Part shown: one piece after another, positions 31,875 through 59,602 of the stretch
Numbering within the stretch: position 1 is the stretch's first letter
How the letters are laid out: each line of letters opens with the position of its first letter
Assembly (NCBI GenBank): GCA_020846745.1
Contig: JADLDI010000064.1
Span: 34,358-98,357 of the forward strand
DNA: 64,000 nt
Source of the DNA: Bryobacterales bacterium
GTDB lineage: Bacteria > Acidobacteriota > Terriglobia > Bryobacterales > Bryobacteraceae
Reading direction: 5' to 3'
The notes under the pieces: model-generated
Seen by the model: the letters and a program-made list of their open reading frames with translations, nothing else
Databases searched by the model: none
Told to the model about the DNA's origin: nothing
Position numbers and translations under genes: made by a program

Positions 31875-34800
31875 GTGCTACACGAACAACCTGCTCTTTC
31901 ATTAGCCTTTGGCTTCTCTTTTGACGACCTCTACACCGACAGCCGCCTCCCGGCTCTGGACGAAGTCTTCCTGCAGCGGCTCGCCGAAGCTGCACCTGCC
32001 GTTGCCGAACAGGTGCGCGCCGCCCGCGCCAACCCCTCACAGTTCACGGCCAAGCAAACCTCCCAAATCATCCTCGACGCCGCACCGCACCTCGAGGATT
32101 TCCTGGGCGATCTCTTCGGCATCGGACCCGAACTCCGCGCCCTCCAAGCCCAGCACGAATCCTTCGCGCCGCTTTTTTCCCTCAAGCGGCGCTTCGTCTT
32201 CAAAAAAGCCGTCTCCGGCGTCTCCAAGGAACAGGCCGAAGCCATCGACCACGCCGCCGCCCAGGCCGAACTCGAACGCCTCTTTGACGAGCCCCTTAGC
32301 GAAGCCTCTTTCGTCCGCCACGTCTCCGTTTGGATGGACGATGAAACGCGTTACTCCATCGAGTTGATGGTCGCCGCCCGCTACGCCGCTTGGGCCGCCC
32401 TCACCGATGAGGGTCGCCATAAACACCGCCGCGACGTCCTTTTCAAACTCCCCCACAAGCTCGACCCCATGCACCTTATCCCGGTCGAGACCACACACGT
32501 CGCCCAAGCCGAAGCCCTCCGCCTCCATCCCGACCACTGGCGCCACCGCGAAGGCTTCGCCCTGACCGACCCTGGCACCGACCTCAAAGGCGCCCTCAGC
32601 GAAGCCAATTACTGCATCAAGTGCCACAACCAGGGCAAGGATTCCTGCTCCACCGGCATGCGCGAAAAAGACGGCCGCTTCAAGCAGACCGTCTTCGGCG
32701 TCACGCTCAACGGCTGCCCTCTCGATCAAAAAATCTCGGAAATGCACGTGGCCAAGCAGAACGGCAACCCCATTGCCGCGCTTGCCATCGTCGCTATCGA
32801 CAATCCCATCTGTGCCGCCACCGGACACCGCATCTGTAACGACTGCATGAAGTCCTGCATTTACCAGAAGCAGGACCCCGTCGACATCCCACAGGCCGAA
32901 ACGCGAACCCTCAAAGACGTTCTCCTGCTGCCCTGGGGCTTCGAAATCTACAGCCTGCTCACCCGCTGGAACCCGCTCAATTTCGTTGCGCCCTTCCCAA
33001 AAGCCTCCACTGGATACAAGGTCTTGATCGTTGGTCTCGGACCCGCCGGATTCAACCTCGCCCATCACCTCATGCACGATGGCCACACCGTCGTCGCCGT
33101 CGACGGCCTCAAAATTGAACCCCTTCCCGAAGCGATCTCCGGCGTCAACGCCTTGGGCGCCCGCGTCCCCTTTCAGCCGATCCACCGCATTGACGATCTG
33201 TTCGAGCACCTGGGCGACCGTGTCATGGCCGGCTTTGGCGGCGTCGCCGAATACGGCATCACCGTCCGCTGGAACAAGAACTTCCTCAAGGTCATCCGCC
33301 TGCTGCTCGAACGCCGCGGTCAATTCTCCATGATCGGCGGCGTCCGCTTCGGTGGCACCCTTACCATCGACGATGCTTTTGCAGCCGGCTTCGATCATGT
33401 CGCCCTCTGCATGGGCGCCGGGCGTCCCACCGTCATTCCCATGAAGAACGGTCTCGCGCGCGGCGTCCGCCAGGCGTCCGACTTCCTTATGGCGCTCCAG
33501 CTCACCGGAGCCGCCAAGCGCGATTCCGTCGCGAATCTCCAGGTCCGCATGCCGGTAATCGTGATCGGCGGCGGCCTTACGGCCATCGATACCGCGACCG
33601 AATCTCTCGCATACTACGTCGTCCAGGTCGAAAAATTCCTCGAACGCTACGAGCGCCTCGTGACGGATCGTGGCGAAGCCGCCGTCCGCGCCTCTTGGAC
33701 CGCCGAAGAAGCCGCGACCGCGGACGGATTTATCGCCCACGCTGAGGCGATCCGCGCCGAACGCGCCCGGGCAGCCCGGGAACATCGCCAACCCAACCTC
33801 ATCGACTTACTCAATAATTGGGGTGGAGTTACCATTGCCTACCGCCGCCGCCTCGTCGACTCACCCAGTTACACACTGAACCATGAGGAAGTCGCCAAGG
33901 CTCTCGAAGAAGGTGTACGCTTCGCTGAATGCCTTTCGCCCGAAGCGGTCACCGTCGATAACAACGGCGCAGCCACCGCGCTCCAGTTATCCCAATACCG
34001 CTACGAACCCGCGACCAATAAATTAGTCCCGACAGGTGACTTAGTAACTCTCCCCGCCCGCACCATCTTAGTCGCCGCCGGCACCCAGCCCAACACGGTC
34101 CTCGCCCGCGAAGATAGCGTCAACGTCATGCTCGACGGCCGCTACTTCCAGGCCGTCAACGAACAGGGCGAACCTGTCAAGCCCGAGCGCGTCGCCAAAC
34201 CCAACCGCGCCGACGTTCTCATGTCCGTCCGCCCCGACGGTAAAGCCATCAGCTTCTTCGGCGACCTCCACCCCTCATTTTCCGGCAACGTCGTCAAAGC
34301 GATGGCCAGCGCCAAACTCGGCCGCGCCGTCCTCTCCCGCGTCCTCGCCAAAGCCGCACCCACCGAGATCGCTCCACAGGACCTCATCACTCACATCAAC
34401 CGCGAACTCCGCGCCGTGGTCCACCAGGTCGTCCGCCTCACGCCCAACATCGTTGAAGTCGTCGTCCATGCTCCGCGCGCCGCCCGCGCCTTCCAACCCG
34501 GCCAGTTCTACCGTCTCCAAAACTTCGAAACCCGCGCCCGCCGCGTACCAGGCACCACCCTTGCCATGGAAGGCTTAGCCCTCACCGAGCCTCCGTCGAC
34601 CGCGAACGCGGCCTGCTCTCCACCATCGTCCTCGAAATGGGCGGCTCCTCGGACCTGTGCGCCCTCCTCCAGCCCGGTGAGCCCGTCATCCTCATGGGCC
34701 CCACCGGCTCCCCGACCGAAACTCCCGCCCAGGAAACCGTCCTTTTAGTCGGCGGCGGACTCGGCAATGCGGTCCTGTTCTCCATCGGCCAGTCCTTCCG

Positions 34801-37125: not shown

Positions 37126-38523
37126 TTAGGGGTGCGATTGTGTTTGGCGGATGCTGTAGAGGTTGGATTCGGTCCTGAGCAGGAGGCGGTCGCTGATTAG
37201 AGCCGGGCTCGAGAGGGTCATTTCTCCCAGGTCGTTGGACGCGATTACTTTGAACTGATCCGCGGCTTGGATGACGTAGGTTTTGCCTTCTTCGTTCTGG
37301 CAGAAGACTTTGCCGTTGTAGGCCCAAGGGGATGTGGTGAATTCGCCTCCTTCGCCGATGCGGGCTTTGTGGGTTTGGACGCCGGTTTTGAGGTTGAAGC
37401 GGGTGAGAATGCCGGTGTGAGTTAAGACATAGAGTCCGCCATCGTAGGCTAACTGGGTGGGGAGATAAGTGCCGGCTTTGGGTTGGATCCAGGCGACGAA
37501 GTCGTTGGGTCTGGATCCGTCGGGCGTGGTGAGGTCGCCGGTTGCGCCGGGTTTGATGGCGAGGACGGGTTTGTTGGCGCCGCCGTTGAGATAAAGGAGG
37601 CCGTCGTGGGCGAAGGGGCTTGGGATGGGCATGGGCGACATGCCGCCAAGGCGCCAGATTTCTTTACCTTTGAGGTCGTAACTGATGGCAATGCCGGGGC
37701 CCATGGTGACGATTTCGGTGCGGGCGGGAGTTTTCCAGATATAGGGCGTGGACCAGCCGGTTTGTCGATCGGCGCCTTGGACGTGAATGGAGCGGCCGGT
37801 GTGCCAAACCTGTTTGCCGGTGGCCTTATCGAACGCCGCGATGAACTGCTGTTTCTCGTTATCGTTGACAACGACGATCAGGTCATCAGCGAGGGCCGGC
37901 GAGGAAGCGGTGCCGAAGTCGAGGATGGTGGGGAAGCTTTCAAGCGCGGTGTTCCAGAGTTTGTTGCCTTTCATGTCGTAGGCGAACAGACCCAGGTTGT
38001 TGATATAGACGTACACGCCCTTGCCGTCGGTGACGGGTGTTTCCGAAGCGAAGCTGTTCTTGCGATGGCGTCCTCCAGGCGGGCGGCCGGAGTGGAATTC
38101 GCGTTTCCAGGCGACGCGGCCGGACGTCAGGTCGAGCGCATAAAGCCAGTAATGGACGGTCACTTCGTTGGGGAGTTCGAAGTCGCGGGCGTTCAGCCGT
38201 GCGAGGACTTCCTTTTCGCTGAGTCCTTGTTTCGAGAGTTCGGCAATGTAGTCGTTCGAGTAAGTGCTGCCGATTTGGGGCTGTTTGGCTTTGCCGTCGG
38301 TGGTGACGGTGGTGAGAAAGACGGTGTTGCCGGCGACAATGGGCGAGGACCAGCCGAGGCCCGGGATGGGGGTGGTCCATTCGATGTTGGTGGCTCTGGA
38401 CCAGGTGTCGGGCAGGCGGGGGTTGGCGGTGGTGGGATTGGAAACGGGTCCGCGAAAGTTGGGCCATTCGGGGGTGGCGGCCAGGGCGGCGACCACGGAC
38501 AGCACGGGTACAGCGATTCTCAT
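37126..38523 (-). CDS. PQQ-binding-like beta-propeller protein
   Basis: 465 aa; WPNFRGPVSNP start region, repeated ALDLTSGRVAWKREF / AFDKATGKQVWHT blades. Confidence 0.9.
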   Translation of the reverse strand: MRIAVPVLSVVAALAATPEWPNFRGPVSNPTTANPRLPDTWSRATNIEWTTPIPGLGWSSPIVAGNTVFLTTVTTDGKAKQPQIGSTYSNDYIAELSKQGLSEKEVLARLNARDFELPNEVTVHYWLYALDLTSGRVAWKREFHSGRPPGGRHRKNSFASETPVTDGKGVYVYINNLGLFAYDMKGNKLWNTALESFPTILDFGTASSPALADDLIVVVNDNEKQQFIAAFDKATGKQVWHTGRSIHVQGADRQTGWSTPYIWKTPARTEIVTMGPGIAISYDLKGKEIWRLGGMSPMPIPSPFAHDGLLYLNGGANKPVLAIKPGATGDLTTPDGSRPNDFVAWIQPKAGTYLPTQLAYDGGLYVLTHTGILTRFNLKTGVQTHKARIGEGGEFTTSPWAYNGKVFCQNEEGKTYVIQAADQFKVIASNDLGEMTLSSPALISDRLLLRTESNLYSIRQTQSHP

Positions 38524-40142: not shown

Positions 40143-41474
40143 ATGACCGCGGTCACGACGACGCTGGGCGATCCTGCCGAGGGTACCCGGCCCGGCAACT
40201 ATTTCGTTTCAAACTATCCGCCCTATTCGGTGTGGGATACGGCAAGTATCGCGCGGGCGCTCGAGGCGCTCGATTCGCCGCCCGCCGCAGCAAACCCGTT
40301 AGGCGTGTACCTGCACGTTCCGTTCTGCCGGAAGCGCTGCCATTTCTGCTACTTCAAGGTGTACACGGATAAGAACGCGGGGGAGGTGGAAGGCTACATC
40401 GAGACGATGGTGGAGGAGATGAAGCTGCACGCCGCCAAGCCGTTTATTGGCGGACGGAAGCCGAGCTTCGTTTACTTCGGTGGAGGAACGCCTTCCTATA
40501 TTTCAACGACGCAGTTGGGGCGGCTGGCCGAAGCGGCAAAGCGGTTATTGCCGTGGGACGAGGCGGAGGAAGTCGCGTTTGAGTGCGAACCCGGTACGAT
40601 TACGGAGCCGAAGCTCAAGGCGATTAAGGAGATCGGGGTAACGCGGCTGAGCCTGGGCATTGAGAACTATAACGACGAGATCTTGAAGGCGAACGGCAGG
40701 GCGCACCTGTCGAAGGAGATCGACCGTTCGTACGCGTATGCGCGGTCGGCTGGATTTGAGGCGATCAACATCGACTTAATCGCAGGAATGGTGGGCGAAA
40801 CGGAAGAGAACTGGCGCGAGTGCGTACGAAAGACGATCGATCTGGCACCCGAGAGCGTGACGGTCTACCAGATGGAAGTACCGTATAACACGACCATCTT
40901 TAAAGAGATGAAGGTGTTCGGGCAGGAGGTGGCGCCGGTAGCGAGCTGGCAGTTGAAACGCGAGTGGGTGAAGTACGCGTTCGCGGAACTGGAGAAAGCC
41001 GGCTACACGGTGGGGAGCGCCTACACGGCGGTGAAAGATCCGCAGAAGACCAAGTTCCTGTATCGGGATTTGCTGTGGCGGGGCGCGGACATGTTGGGGC
41101 TGGGTGTAGCGTCGTTCTCGCATGTGCAGGGGATGCACTTCCAGAACGAGCATGAGTTTGAGCGGTACCGGGAACGGGTGGCCAAAGGCGAGATACCGGT
41201 GTGCCGCGCGCTCGAGACGAGCGCGGACGACCGGTTGATTCGCGAGTACATACTGCAGATGAAACTGGGCCGGGTGGGGCGGCGGTATTTCGTGGATAAG
41301 TTCGGAGTGGACCCGCATGAGCGGTTTGCCGGGGCGCTGGGGAAATTGAGCGAGGCGGGATTAGCGGCGGTGGGCGACGACGGCGTGGAATTGACGCGGG
41401 ACGGATTGATGCGGGTGGACGGGTTGCTGCACCAGTTTTTCCGGCCGGAACATCAACTGGCACGGCGGGTATAG
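40143..41474 (+). CDS. HemN/HemW-like radical SAM protein (coproporphyrinogen III oxidase family)
   Basis: LHVPFCRKRCHFCYFKVY (CxxxCxxC), FGGGTPSYIS, RLSLGIEN, NIDLIAGMVGETEENW. Confidence 0.92.
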   Translation: MTAVTTTLGDPAEGTRPGNYFVSNYPPYSVWDTASIARALEALDSPPAAANPLGVYLHVPFCRKRCHFCYFKVYTDKNAGEVEGYIETMVEEMKLHAAKPFIGGRKPSFVYFGGGTPSYISTTQLGRLAEAAKRLLPWDEAEEVAFECEPGTITEPKLKAIKEIGVTRLSLGIENYNDEILKANGRAHLSKEIDRSYAYARSAGFEAINIDLIAGMVGETEENWRECVRKTIDLAPESVTVYQMEVPYNTTIFKEMKVFGQEVAPVASWQLKREWVKYAFAELEKAGYTVGSAYTAVKDPQKTKFLYRDLLWRGADMLGLGVASFSHVQGMHFQNEHEFERYRERVAKGEIPVCRALETSADDRLIREYILQMKLGRVGRRYFVDKFGVDPHERFAGALGKLSEAGLAAVGDDGVELTRDGLMRVDGLLHQFFRPEHQLARRV

Positions 41475-41487
41475 AGGAAGGTAGGAA

Positions 41488-42777
41488 ATGAGTAATCGAC
41501 GCGAGTACGATGCCGTAGTGATTGGCGGCGGACCTGCGGGCGCCACGGTGGGCGCGGTGCTGGCAACGAAGGGCCGGCGCGTCGTGGTGCTGGAGCGGGA
41601 GAAGTTTCCGCGGTATCACATTGGCGAGTCGCTGTTGCCGTATTGCTATTTTCCGCTGGAACGGATGGGCCTGGTTGAGAAGATGAACGCGTCGCACTTC
41701 CCGAAGAAATATAGCGTGCAGTTTGTATCGACAGAGGGGAAGGTGTCGGTTCCGTTCTATTTTTTCAAGCATTGGGACCATCCGGCGGCGGTGACGTGGC
41801 AGGTGTTGCGGAGTGAGTTCGACCAGATGCTGCTCGAAAACGCGCGCGAAAAAGGCGCGGAGGTGATCGAGCGGATGACCGTGCGGGACCTGCTGCGGAG
41901 CGGTGACACGGTGACAGGCGTGCGCGCGGTGGATGCCGCGGGCGAGCCGCACGAGTTCCATGCGCCGATGACGATTGATGCGACGGGGCGCGATTCGTTT
42001 GCCGTAGGTAAGAACGGCTGGAAGGTGCGCGATCAGTATCTGAATAAGATCGCGATCTGGAGTTACTACAAGGGTGCGCACCGCGACCCCGGCTTTGACG
42101 AAGGCGCCACGACGGTGGCGTTTGTGCCGGAGAAGGGCTGGTTCTGGTATATCCCGCTGCCGGACGATATTGTGAGCGTGGGCGTGGTGGCGGAGAAGGA
42201 TTACTTATACCGGGATACACGCGAACTGGGCGAGATCTACCAGCGCGAGATCGCAGTGAACCCGTGGATACAGTCGCACGTGGAGAAGGGGCGGCAGACA
42301 GGTCCTTATTACGTGACGGGTGAGTTTTCGTATCGCTCGCGGCATTGTGCGTCGAACGGGCTGGTTTTGACAGGAGATGCGTTCGGATTTTTGGACCCAG
42401 TGTTTTCCTCGGGCGTGTTTCTGGCGTTGCGAAGCGGCGAGTTATGCGCGGACGCGGTGGACGCGGCGCTTACCCAAGGTGACGTGTCGGCGCCGCGGTT
42501 TGCGGAGTACGGGCGTACAGTGTGCGAAGGGATCGAAGCGATGCGGCGGCTGGTGTATTCGTTCTACAACCCCGGATTCAGCTTCAAAGAGTTCCTGATG
42601 GAGTTTCCGCATATGCGCGGCGACCTGACCGATTGCCTGATCGGGAACCTGTTCAAGGACTTCGACCCGATGTTCGAGGCGATGGCCAAGTTCGCCGATA
42701 TTCCAGCGCCGTTACCGCACGGGAAACCGTTTGTCTTGACACCAGAGTCGGCTTCGAGGGTGCAGGCACTGGCATGA
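41488..42777 (+). CDS. FAD-dependent oxidoreductase, flavin-dependent halogenase-like
   Basis: DAVVIGGGPAGATVGAVLA Rossmann motif; GWFWYIPLPDD matches WxWxIP; GDAFGFLDPVFSSGVFLAL. Confidence 0.88.
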   Translation: MSNRREYDAVVIGGGPAGATVGAVLATKGRRVVVLEREKFPRYHIGESLLPYCYFPLERMGLVEKMNASHFPKKYSVQFVSTEGKVSVPFYFFKHWDHPAAVTWQVLRSEFDQMLLENAREKGAEVIERMTVRDLLRSGDTVTGVRAVDAAGEPHEFHAPMTIDATGRDSFAVGKNGWKVRDQYLNKIAIWSYYKGAHRDPGFDEGATTVAFVPEKGWFWYIPLPDDIVSVGVVAEKDYLYRDTRELGEIYQREIAVNPWIQSHVEKGRQTGPYYVTGEFSYRSRHCASNGLVLTGDAFGFLDPVFSSGVFLALRSGELCADAVDAALTQGDVSAPRFAEYGRTVCEGIEAMRRLVYSFYNPGFSFKEFLMEFPHMRGDLTDCLIGNLFKDFDPMFEAMAKFADIPAPLPHGKPFVLTPESASRVQALA

Positions 42778-44000
42778 ACCCAGTCCAGCTTCGGAAGTGG
42801 CAGGAGCTATGCGCGGCCGTTGTGCCCGCCAACTCCTTCTACACGGCGAAGCTGAAGGGCTGCGACTTATCTGCGTTTGCGAGCCTTCCGCTTACTACTA
42901 AGAAGGAGTTAGTGGCGGACCAGGCGGCCAACCCTCCATTCGGCACGAACCTGACTTATCCGGTGGAGCGGTATTCACGCTTTGCGCAGACGAGCGGATC
43001 GACGGGGAAGCCCATGCGGTGGCTGGATACCGAGGAGAGTTGGGAGTGGATGGCGCGAAACTGGCGCCGCGTATTTGAGACGGCGGGTGTTACGTCCGAG
43101 GATCGGATGTTTTTCGCGTTTTCCTTCGGTCCGTTTTTGGGGTTCTGGACGGCATTCGAGGCGGCTAGCCGGTTGGGGTGTTTGTGTATACCGAGCGGGG
43201 GAATGCGGAGCGCGGCGCGGCTGCACCTGTTCATCGATAGTGAGGCGACGGTGCTGTGCTGTACGCCGACGTATGCGCTGTATCTGGCGCAGATCGCGAA
43301 GGAGGAAGGCGTCTATCTGGCGGCGAGCCCGATAAGGCGGATTATTGTGGCGGGGGAACCGGGCGGCAGTATCTTGGCGACACGGCGTGAGCTGGAACGG
43401 CTGTGGAACGGGGCAGCAGTGGTGGACCATCACGGGATGACCGAGATCGGTCCGGTAAGTTATGGGTGTCCGGCGGAGCCAGGTGTGCTGCACGTGATGG
43501 AGGACGAATTTATTGCCGAGGTGATCGATCCGGCTTCCGGATTACCGCTTCCAGAAGGTTCGCGCGGCGAGTTGGTGTTGACTAACTTGGGACGTTTGGG
43601 GTCTCCGCTGATCCGGTATCGGACGGGAGATGTGGTCGAGACGCGTGCGCGCGGGCGGTGCGATTGCGGGTCGGACGAACTGGCGCTCGTGGGGGGCATT
43701 CTGGGTCGTACCGACGATATGGTCGTAGTGCGTGGGGTGAACGTCTACCCGACAGCGGTCGAGGACATTGTTCGGTCGGTCGGCGGGGTGACGGAATACC
43801 GTGTGCGGGTGTTTAAGGATCGATCGCTGGTAGAACTGGCGATGGACATTGAACTGGAGAACGGGCACGGGCGAGAGGTGGCGCACCGGTTGGAGTTTGC
43901 CTTGCGCGATGCGCTATCGCTGCGAGTCCCCGTAACCGTTCAGGCCGGCGGCACGTTGCCGCGCTTTGAGATGAAGGCCAAACGCTGGATCAGGAGTTAA
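42774..44000 (+). CDS. Adenylate-forming ligase, phenylacetate-CoA ligase-like
   Basis: FAQTSGSTGKPMRW, DHHGMTEIGPVSYGC, YRTGDVVETRARGRCDCGS, GRTDDMVVVRGVNVYPTAVEDIV; ATGA overlap with upstream gene. Confidence 0.92.
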   Translation: MNPVQLRKWQELCAAVVPANSFYTAKLKGCDLSAFASLPLTTKKELVADQAANPPFGTNLTYPVERYSRFAQTSGSTGKPMRWLDTEESWEWMARNWRRVFETAGVTSEDRMFFAFSFGPFLGFWTAFEAASRLGCLCIPSGGMRSAARLHLFIDSEATVLCCTPTYALYLAQIAKEEGVYLAASPIRRIIVAGEPGGSILATRRELERLWNGAAVVDHHGMTEIGPVSYGCPAEPGVLHVMEDEFIAEVIDPASGLPLPEGSRGELVLTNLGRLGSPLIRYRTGDVVETRARGRCDCGSDELALVGGILGRTDDMVVVRGVNVYPTAVEDIVRSVGGVTEYRVRVFKDRSLVELAMDIELENGHGREVAHRLEFALRDALSLRVPVTVQAGGTLPRFEMKAKRWIRS

Positions 44001-45230: not shown

Positions 45231-45491
45231 ATGCGAACCACCCTCACGCTCGATCCGGATGTGGCTGCGAAGGTTAAAGAAAGAGTCCGCGAAACGAACT
45301 CTTCTTTGAAAGACGTGGTGAACCGGGCGCTACGGGCCGGGTTAGCAGGTGGGCCGCTCGCCCCTCCAGAACCGTTCCGGGTGACGCCGCACAATCTCGG
45401 ACTGCTGCCAGGAATTGATCCCTACAAGCTCAACCAGTTGGTGGACGATTTGGAAATTGATGAGTTTCTGAATGGTCATTCCGGACGTTAA
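45231..45491 (+). CDS. VapB-like antitoxin
   Basis: MRTTLTLDPDVAAKVKERVRETNSSLKDVVNRALRAGL; overlaps the PIN toxin ORF. Confidence 0.85.
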   Translation: MRTTLTLDPDVAAKVKERVRETNSSLKDVVNRALRAGLAGGPLAPPEPFRVTPHNLGLLPGIDPYKLNQLVDDLEIDEFLNGHSGR

Positions 45492-45903
45492 TATACTGGT
45501 GTACGCCTACGACACCGGAGCGGTTGATCATCCGGTGGCGCGTCAGTGGTGGGAAGGGATTCTCAATAGCCAAACGGCGGTGGGACTGCCATGGGTGAGT
45601 ACGTTAGGATTTATTCGGATTGTAACGAGCCGACGTGCAGTCTCCAACCCGATGGCGGTAAAGGATGCAGTGCGGTACGTCCGTTACTGGTTGGACCGGC
45701 CGCACGTCAGGATACTGACGCCCGGTGAGCGTCACGCGGAAATCCTCTTTGGACTGATCGAGTCGCTCGGCACGGCAGGCAATCTGACCACCGATGCGCA
45801 TCTGGCGGCACTCGCGATGGAGTATCGCGCCGAACTTGTTTCGATGGACGCGGATTTCGCGAGGTTTAAAGGGTTGCGATGGCGCCGGTTGGGTCACCAC
45901 TAG
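45472..45903 (+). CDS. VapC-like PIN-domain toxin
   Basis: MVIPDVNILVYAYD...NLTTDAHLAALAMEYRAELVSMDADFARFKGLRW. Confidence 0.92.
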   Translation: MVIPDVNILVYAYDTGAVDHPVARQWWEGILNSQTAVGLPWVSTLGFIRIVTSRRAVSNPMAVKDAVRYVRYWLDRPHVRILTPGERHAEILFGLIESLGTAGNLTTDAHLAALAMEYRAELVSMDADFARFKGLRWRRLGHH

Positions 45904-58372: not shown

Positions 58373-59503
58373 TTACTCTCGCAAGCGTCCGGCCAAACTC
58401 AAAAGTCTCGGATTCTTCCAGAGGAGTTTCAGAGCCCAACGCCCGAGGAAGTTCGAACGGAGCGCTTCGATGAATTGATCGGGCGAAAACGCACGAAGCA
58501 TGTCGAGCGCCCGTTCCCACTTGTCATCATCGAAAGAAGCCATGCGGCGGTTGAGCGCGGCGGCGATGCGCAGATCGCGGCCGTGGGCACGGTTCCATTC
58601 TTCAGGGAATCGTTCGGGCTTCCCTGCCCCGATGGCGGCGCCCGCCATGCGGCCCGCGAGGATTGCCCAACGAATGCCCTCGCCCACCAGCGCCGATGCA
58701 TGTCCGGCCGCATCGCCCACGCCCAGGATGCCCGGTGCATAGCAGTTGGCGGCCAGACCGTCGGACGGGATCAGTCCCTGATGCACTTCCACCGGCTGCG
58801 CACCCGGCAAATAGGTCTCGACAAGTTCATCTAAATATGTTTCGGGCTTCTCGCGCGAATCGCCATGGATGATCCCGACTCCGGCACGCACCCTGCCCCG
58901 TCCCCACGGGAAGATCCACGCGTAACCGGAAGGCGCGAACCGGTCGCCCACGATCAGCACCACTTCATTCTGATCCCATTTGGGAGCGTAGAGGTCGTAT
59001 TCTGCGCCGACGCCAAAGCGGTTGAATCCCGGGTGAACGCCTGCTTCTCTTAGTAACGCGGCGCGGTAACCCGTGGCGTCGACCACAAGGTCCGCCGTGA
59101 GTTGTTCATTGCGGACGCGGACGCCGGTGACTTGGCCGTTCTGTTGGATGAGACCGTCGACCCTGGTAGCCAACCGCATGCGGGCCCCGGCCGCGATAGC
59201 GCGTTCCGCGAGGTGCTGATACACACCACGCACGTCCATGATGCAGAGGTCCGGCCGGGGGTATTCAAAGAGGACTTCGGTCTGCGGCCCAATGAAGCGG
59301 CAGCGGTGGATGGGATGGAGCAGGTCCGGCGGAATGCCCAGTTCAAGCAGGTCCTTCAGGAACGAACCGCCGGAGGTCCGGATGGGTCCGCCGATCTCCT
59401 TATTCTGTTCAACGATCAGGACACTGCGTCCGCAGCGCGCGGCAGCTTCGGCGGTCGCGAGCCCGGCGGGTCCGCCACCGGCCACAATCACATCGGCCGT
59501 CAT
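58373..59503 (-). CDS. Geranylgeranyl reductase-like FAD oxidoreductase
   Basis: DVIVAGGGPAGLATAEAAARCG; GILGVGDAAGHASALVGEGIRWAI; ATG at 59503. Confidence 0.88.
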   Translation of the reverse strand: MTADVIVAGGGPAGLATAEAAARCGRSVLIVEQNKEIGGPIRTSGGSFLKDLLELGIPPDLLHPIHRCRFIGPQTEVLFEYPRPDLCIMDVRGVYQHLAERAIAAGARMRLATRVDGLIQQNGQVTGVRVRNEQLTADLVVDATGYRAALLREAGVHPGFNRFGVGAEYDLYAPKWDQNEVVLIVGDRFAPSGYAWIFPWGRGRVRAGVGIIHGDSREKPETYLDELVETYLPGAQPVEVHQGLIPSDGLAANCYAPGILGVGDAAGHASALVGEGIRWAILAGRMAGAAIGAGKPERFPEEWNRAHGRDLRIAAALNRRMASFDDDKWERALDMLRAFSPDQFIEALRSNFLGRWALKLLWKNPRLLSLAGRLRE

Positions 59504-59602
59504 TCGTCCTTGGTAATCCCAGGCAAGTATTTCACCGAGGTGCGCGGCTCGGCCATCATGCCGGCCACGGTGTCGCGCCACGCCTGGACGATCAACATCT
59601 AT

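Follow-up and report, generated by a model that had tools for sequence, protein, structure and literature searches.

A 64,000-nucleotide stretch of DNA from the soil-type acidobacterial genome Bryobacterales bacterium (GenBank assembly GCA_020846745.1, contig JADLDI010000064.1, forward-strand positions 34,358 to 98,357; hereafter the window) carries three coupled genes for a HemN-like radical S-adenosylmethionine (SAM) enzyme, a halogenase-like flavin adenine dinucleotide (FAD)-dependent enzyme and a PaaK-like adenylate-forming ligase. We tentatively read this trio as the compact Bryobacteraceae form of a conserved small-molecule operon that would combine activation of an aryl acid at the coenzyme A (CoA) level, oxidative modification, for which halogenation is favoured, and one-carbon radical chemistry. 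Its most probable role is the production and transport of a small aromatic compound that has been modified. All three genes are intact and lie on the plus strand, arranged as follows in window coordinates.

40143 to 41474, plus strand: HemN-like radical SAM enzyme (P0001), 443 amino acids, PF04055 at 84 bits.
41475 to 41487, plus strand: 13-nucleotide gap between the radical SAM and FAD enzyme genes, containing the Shine-Dalgarno-like GAGGAAGG.
41488 to 42777, plus strand: FAD-dependent halogenase-like enzyme (P0002), 429 amino acids, assigned through NF033113 (CmlS), PF04820 and Foldseek searches with an AlphaFold2 model.
42774 to 42777, plus strand: ATGA, in which the stop codon of the FAD enzyme gene overlaps the start codon of the ligase gene.
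42774 to 44000, plus strand: PaaK-like adenylate-forming ligase (P0003), 408 amino acids, N terminus MNPVQ, PF00501 and PF14535.

The sequence thus bears out the gene coupling described in a first-pass annotation, which was made from the DNA letters alone. A GTG-start open reading frame at 42522 in the mechanical list of reading frames is a frame extension of the ligase gene. The annotation was also right that no carrier protein, polyketide synthase (PKS) or nonribosomal peptide synthetase (NRPS) accompanies the trio. This holds too for the extended operon of relatives described below, whose small open reading frames include no convincing acyl carrier protein: a regular-expression scan of them returned three implausible hits, none credible.

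The arrangement of the trio is not due to chance: dozens of genomes carry it in intact and syntenic form with 57–77% protein identity, while the flanking genes vary between relatives. A genome scan with P0002 identified 80 loci (55–77% identity) in Acidobacteriota, Planctomycetota, Verrucomicrobiota, Armatimonadota, Omnitrophota, Calditrichota and others, where the FAD enzyme gene mostly adjoins the radical SAM gene and often that for PaaK as well. This locus set is anchored on P0002 and so blind to operons without the FAD enzyme, a bias partly corrected by scans anchored on the radical SAM enzyme. Among 150 genomes of the same family, orthologues of the radical SAM enzyme occur in 26, of the ligase (at least 57% identity) in 27 and of the FAD enzyme (at least 63%) in 23, and these are nearly the same genomes. 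Across 396 Acidobacteriota genomes the radical SAM enzyme is present in 65, the FAD enzyme in 60 and both in 58 (Fisher p 5e-59, relatedness not corrected), and distances between the core families correlate (r 0.66–0.88). This strong co-occurrence answers the first-pass proposal of a neighbourhood comparison and removes the concern that the three genes might not be conserved together. No plasmid-borne close relatives were found. The relatives are for the most part metagenome-assembled, and some of their taxonomic labels seem incorrect (L031 as Acidimicrobiia; L082, labelled Akkermansia, nearly identical to L094, labelled Pedosphaera). The FAD enzyme tree contains several phylum mixings, and transfer or mis-binned metagenome-assembled genomes therefore contribute to it.

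Profile scores and the predicted structure group P0002 with the flavin-dependent halogenases rather than the geranylgeranyl reductases. It scores 205 bits against the CmlS model NF033113, which is below the cut-off of 900, and 104 bits against PF04820 (Trp_halogenase), as against 126 bits for a geranylgeranyl-reductase subfamily model. A 28-sequence profile of the FAD enzyme aligns over nearly the full length of PltA, ChlB4 and Mpy16. The AlphaFold2 model (predicted local distance difference test score, pLDDT, 91) finds FasV, ChlB4, Bmp2, CndH, PltA and Mpy16 as its best Foldseek matches; ranks 1–11 are all halogenases, and the geranylgeranyl-reductase-like 3oz2 appears at rank 28 with 19% identity. 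Three motifs of the halogenases are present.

41707 to 41709, plus strand: codon of K74, which aligns with the lysine of the FxxKxG motif in PltA/ChlB4/CndH-type halogenases of the PDB.
42139 to 42156, plus strand: WFWYIP (halogenase motif WxWxIP), residues 218–223.
42388 to 42414, plus strand: FLDPVFSSG (halogenase motif Fx.Px.SxG).

K74, which aligns with the KKFG/KKYG lysine of PltA and ChlB4, is a lysine in 132 of 132 homologues. W218, W220 and P223 are likewise present in 132/132 and I222 in 131/132 (one Val), giving a full WxWxIP in 131/132, and F301, P304, S307 and G309 occur in all 131 homologues that cover them. The model scores, Foldseek ranks and halogenase motifs together rule out a geranylgeranyl reductase. 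The first-pass placement of the flavoenzyme in the halogenase class accordingly holds, including the catalytic lysine that it had singled out for checking by alignment. P0002 shares its fold, FAD motifs, lysine, WxWxIP and Fx.Px.SxG with PltA, Mpy16, Bmp2, ChlB4, FasV, CndH and CmlS (about 28–32% identity in the structure search), and differs from them in having Ser for Gly after the lysine, within a clade signature K-[YH]-S-V-Q-F. Its setting also differs from that of the PltA/CmlS class, because it has no carrier protein or PKS/NRPS partner and instead adjoins a HemN-like radical SAM enzyme and PaaK. A second FAD oxidoreductase in the window (58373–59581, minus strand), geranylgeranyl-reductase-like by eye, matches the FAD enzyme profile at 44 bits and lacks the K-[YH]-S-V-Q-F signature.

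The radical SAM enzyme is, as first annotated, of the HemN type, yet it is neither HemN nor HemW. Its highest scores are to TIGR00538 hemN (202 bits, cut-off 325), TIGR04107 HutW (182 bits) and STM4012 (177 bits), and it reaches 171 bits against the HemW model TIGR00539 (cut-off 205); all lie below the equivalog cut-offs. The genome encodes its HemW as a separate gene (at C45, 217 bits). The cluster-binding motif is located as follows.

40326 to 40349, plus strand: CxxxCxxC [4Fe-4S] motif, C62/C66/C69, aligned to E. coli HemN and HemW.

These three cysteines and Y56 are invariant among the 109 family members covering the positions, and R186 and D211 are also conserved. The fourth Cys of HemN (C71 in E. 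coli) is replaced by F71, and the position is F or Y across the family. Y56 corresponds to the Tyr that is reported to stack on the second SAM molecule (SAM-II), namely Tyr56 of HemN and Tyr34 of NocN (PMC12871812). A two-SAM, class C reaction is the natural inference from this conservation, and one-carbon transfer is its putative outcome. P0001 resembles the class C methylases (NosN/NocN, TbtI, C10P) and HutW/ChuW in its HemN-like domain, CxxxCxxC motif, SAM-II Tyr and approximately HemN-like length (PMC12871812). It is set apart from them by forming its own clade below all equivalog cut-offs, by an N-terminal NYPP motif and by having no peptide or PKS partner. A role in tetrapyrrole metabolism, with the enzyme acting as a heme-handling homologue of HemN, HemW or HutW, would agree with the identity of the top-scoring NCBIfam models (hemN, HutW, STM4012). 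However, the sub-threshold scores, the missing fourth Cys, the separate HemW and the ill-fitting lyase, PaaK and halogenase neighbours make such a role highly improbable.

P0003 matches PF00501 and PF14535 above their cut-offs and the PaaK structure 4r1l with an E value of 1.8e-47, confirming it as an adenylate-forming ligase. Two of its catalytic elements are positioned as follows.

42990 to 43007, plus strand: TSGSTG ATP-binding loop; T73 in 75/75 and S74 in 74/75 homologues.
43974 to 43976, plus strand: codon of K401, the C-terminal-domain lysine; Lys in 67/67 homologues covering the site.

The adenylation motifs and this lysine are retained across the family. P0003 shares with the PaaK, BagE, FevW and FlxY ligases the ATP loop, HGMTE, YRTGD, the C-terminal Lys and an AMP-binding_C_2 domain. 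Unlike PaaK itself, it scores only 187 bits against the PaaK equivalog TIGR02155, far under the cut-off of 646, and any assignment of its substrate is therefore putative.

Profile searches in relatives revealed a longer operon with collinear gene order and as many as 15 genes, all 15 being present in L040, L060 and L083. (An initial community clustering contained many antisense shadow reading frames owing to high GC content; these were disregarded and profile searches used instead.) The first part of the operon encodes, in order, DUF3311, a solute:sodium symporter (SSS), a LuxE-like AMP ligase, an aldehyde-dehydrogenase-like protein, an iron-containing alcohol dehydrogenase (Fe-ADH) and a pyrroloquinoline quinone (PQQ)-type β-propeller. 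The second part encodes the radical SAM enzyme, a lyase-fold protein, the FAD enzyme, a family 4 glycosyltransferase (GT4), a hotdog thioesterase, an EamA-like protein, PaaK, an ATP-binding cassette (ABC) ATPase and a permease. This long form is found in Planctomycetota, Verrucomicrobiota and other Acidobacteriota, where the LuxE-like ligase, aldehyde-dehydrogenase-like protein, Fe-ADH and symporter are often, though not always, included. The window trio is therefore best read as its reduced Bryobacteraceae form. The first-pass interpretation was thus correct about the three enzyme classes and wrong in calling them a small standalone pathway, since the longer operon adds transport and glycosyl-transfer functions. 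A search limited to open-access papers found no description of the operon, which is apparently undescribed.

Upstream of the radical SAM gene in L040, L060, L083 and L173–L176, the genes for the LuxE-like ligase, aldehyde-dehydrogenase-like protein and Fe-ADH make up a conserved block of acid-to-alcohol type; no NCBIfam model matches the LuxE-like protein. A lipid pathway, in which acyl chains would be activated, reduced by the LuxE-like, aldehyde-dehydrogenase-like and Fe-ADH enzymes, joined to 4-hydroxybenzoate and chlorinated, would yield chlorinated 4-hydroxybenzoate lipids resembling the planctomycete alichondrichlorin. A chlorinated fatty acid has been reported from R. baltica (PMC12078418), and lyase, ligase, halogenase, thioesterase and reductases occur together in long operons, including one in the Rhodopirellula-labelled metagenome-assembled genome L070. 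The window trio, however, is without the reductases. Characterised halogenases of the P0002 class, moreover, act on aromatic or activated carbons, and we regard the lipid pathway as very unlikely.

Among the long operons of Acidobacteriota outside the Bryobacteraceae, 6 of 13 include a TonB receptor, and that of L169 scores above the siderophore-receptor cut-off (TIGR01783, 236 versus 223.5 bits). With a lyase, an adenylating enzyme and an ABC exporter in the same operon, this could point to synthesis, export and re-uptake of a metallophore (siderophore-like) whose ligand would be of the phenolate or 4-hydroxybenzoate type; the trio would then be a remnant that works on exogenous precursors. 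Against this, there is no NRPS or NRPS-independent siderophore synthetase, and no TonB receptor was found in the 80 P0002-anchored loci, which include long operons of the Planctomycetes–Verrucomicrobia–Chlamydiae (PVC) group, or in the window. A metallophore is therefore quite unlikely. Two further arrangements were seen among the relatives: in the acidobacterial operons L121, L122, L031, L032 and L167 the gene immediately after that for PaaK or the FAD enzyme encodes a Na+/H+ antiporter (PF00999-type), and L170 (9168–12126) has a tandem pair of radical SAM genes with identical scores (a duplication or an assembly artefact).

The lyase-fold protein (c3) of the related operons suggests a source for the aromatic acid. 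Its AlphaFold2 model (pLDDT 94) matches the DUF98 protein 2nwi (E 9e-9), followed by UTRA domains and E. coli UbiC (1fw9, E 2.7e-4) in Foldseek. HHalign matches the protein to UbiC at E 5e-5, and a PDB search with its profile recovers 2nwi (E 0.004). DMT, Arg81, Gly-Arg and Glu180 are invariant among 32 sequences. The protein thus shares with UbiC and DUF98 (2nwi) the fold, DMT motif, catalytic Arg, Gly-Arg pair and terminal Glu, the last positioned by eye because the HHalign match ends just short of it; this does not imply activity, as the ligand-binding UTRA domain has the same fold. It differs from UbiC and DUF98 in having no Pfam match and no NCBIfam score above cut-off, and it was not found in the window genome. 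Given the match to UbiC/DUF98, the starting acid in the long forms could plausibly be 4-hydroxybenzoate or a relative. The first-pass suggestion that an aryl or acyl acid is activated without a carrier protein fits these data and is strengthened by the presence of a chorismate-lyase-fold gene inside related operons. In one relative, G088, the lyase-fold gene (L128:6715–7257) is on a different contig from the trio, beside a LacI-like regulator.

We infer the following scheme, including its substrate, the choice of halogenation over hydroxylation, the order of steps and the product. In the long forms the lyase-fold protein would make 4-hydroxybenzoate or a relative from chorismate. The PaaK-like ligase would convert an aromatic (possibly other) acid to its CoA thioester, and the FAD enzyme, with FADH2 from a general reductase, would carry out an oxidative modification of the electron-rich ring, halogenation by a hypohalous acid/lysine mechanism being the likeliest reaction. 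The HemN-like enzyme would spend two SAM molecules on a one-carbon (methyl-type) or related C–C step. In the long forms the hotdog thioesterase would free the product from its thioester, GT4 may glycosylate it and the ABC permease would export it, with uptake by the TonB receptor and Na+ symporter in some lineages. Chorismate-lyase-type genes are paired with a halogenase in the Bmp bromophenol pathway and with a ligase and glycosyltransferase in the Rv2949c p-hydroxybenzoate glycolipid pathway of Mycobacterium tuberculosis. In contrast to these pathways, the operon has no P450, decarboxylating brominase or PKS, and adds radical SAM, hotdog thioesterase, Fe-ADH and propeller genes. It is possible, though doubtful, that the operon of up to 15 genes serves across Acidobacteriota, Planctomycetota, Verrucomicrobiota, Omnitrophota and Armatimonadota to make, export and sometimes re-import a new halogenated, one-carbon-modified phenolic by CoA-level, carrier-free chemistry, with the window holding the minimal three-enzyme core. 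Such a product might be a redox cofactor, metallophore or phenolic glycolipid.

Several observations weigh against the reading of the trio as part of a halogenating aromatic pathway. Many acidobacterial operons outside the Bryobacteraceae have neither PaaK nor the lyase, though most other genes are kept, and substrate activation may differ there. No chorismate lyase was detected in the window genome with the A1 profile, PF01947 or PF04345. The A1 profile finds the lyase-fold gene in 7 of the 150 family genomes, two of them weak or partial, and its presence switches at least 14 times on the FAD enzyme tree, so other acid sources must exist. Four Bryobacteraceae genomes (G013, G058, G148 and G054) keep the radical SAM and PaaK genes and have no FAD enzyme gene within the operon. 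In the first three, in which those genes are adjacent or separated by a thioesterase, a homologue of the FAD enzyme (46–48% identical, of a type present in 5 of the 150 genomes) is encoded elsewhere, which looks like replacement; G054, a genome of 87% completeness from the genus of the window, is an exception, with a radical SAM–lyase–PaaK arrangement and no detectable FAD enzyme. The operon is also present throughout one acidobacterial genus (g150), resembling a fixed function more than a patchy secondary metabolite. Finally, the residue two positions after K74 is Ser in 125 of 132 homologues, giving K-x-S in place of the K-x-G found in the aligned characterised halogenases (K-x-G being a supportive rather than a defining trait), and the fold is also used by monooxygenases (QhpG, 3nix-like).

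This last point raises the alternative that the pathway is as proposed and the FAD enzyme is a QhpG/LodB-like monooxygenase or oxidase that hydroxylates the ring, so that the product would be a quinone-like redox compound and not a halogenated one. P0002 matches the QhpG (126 bits) and LodB (91 bits) models, QhpG resembles CmlS and yet is a monooxygenase (PMC7876137), and PQQ-type β-propeller genes lie within the operon. Hydroxylation nonetheless seems somewhat unlikely, given the far higher score to the CmlS/PltA/FasV-type halogenases (205 bits) and the essentially invariant halogenase motifs. Because QhpG shares its fold, the sequence of P0002 favours halogenation without proving it.

Few natural products are known from Acidobacteriota, Verrucomicrobiota and Planctomycetota, although soils and waters hold these phyla in abundance. 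An operon that joins a halogenase-type enzyme and a HemN-like radical SAM enzyme to carrier-free acid activation would probably be overlooked by mining rules built on PKS, NRPS or ribosomally synthesized and post-translationally modified peptide (RiPP) cores. If halogenation is true, the operon is a specific candidate source of biologically produced organohalogens in these three phyla, and the short three-gene version in the window is the one to express first.

The neighbours of the trio have other functions or lie on the opposite strand. Upstream, on the minus strand, are a sulfatase gene and a PQQ-propeller gene (37126–38523), the latter a weak match to the propeller profile of the operon (44 bits); propeller genes of this type recur near related operons. 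Downstream are a sugar-isomerase-like gene (minus strand), an antitoxin/PIN-toxin-like pair (plus strand) and murB. By eye, the pair is VapBC-like (45231–45903), with the antitoxin-like gene (86 amino acids) overlapping that for the PIN-domain-like toxin (143 amino acids).

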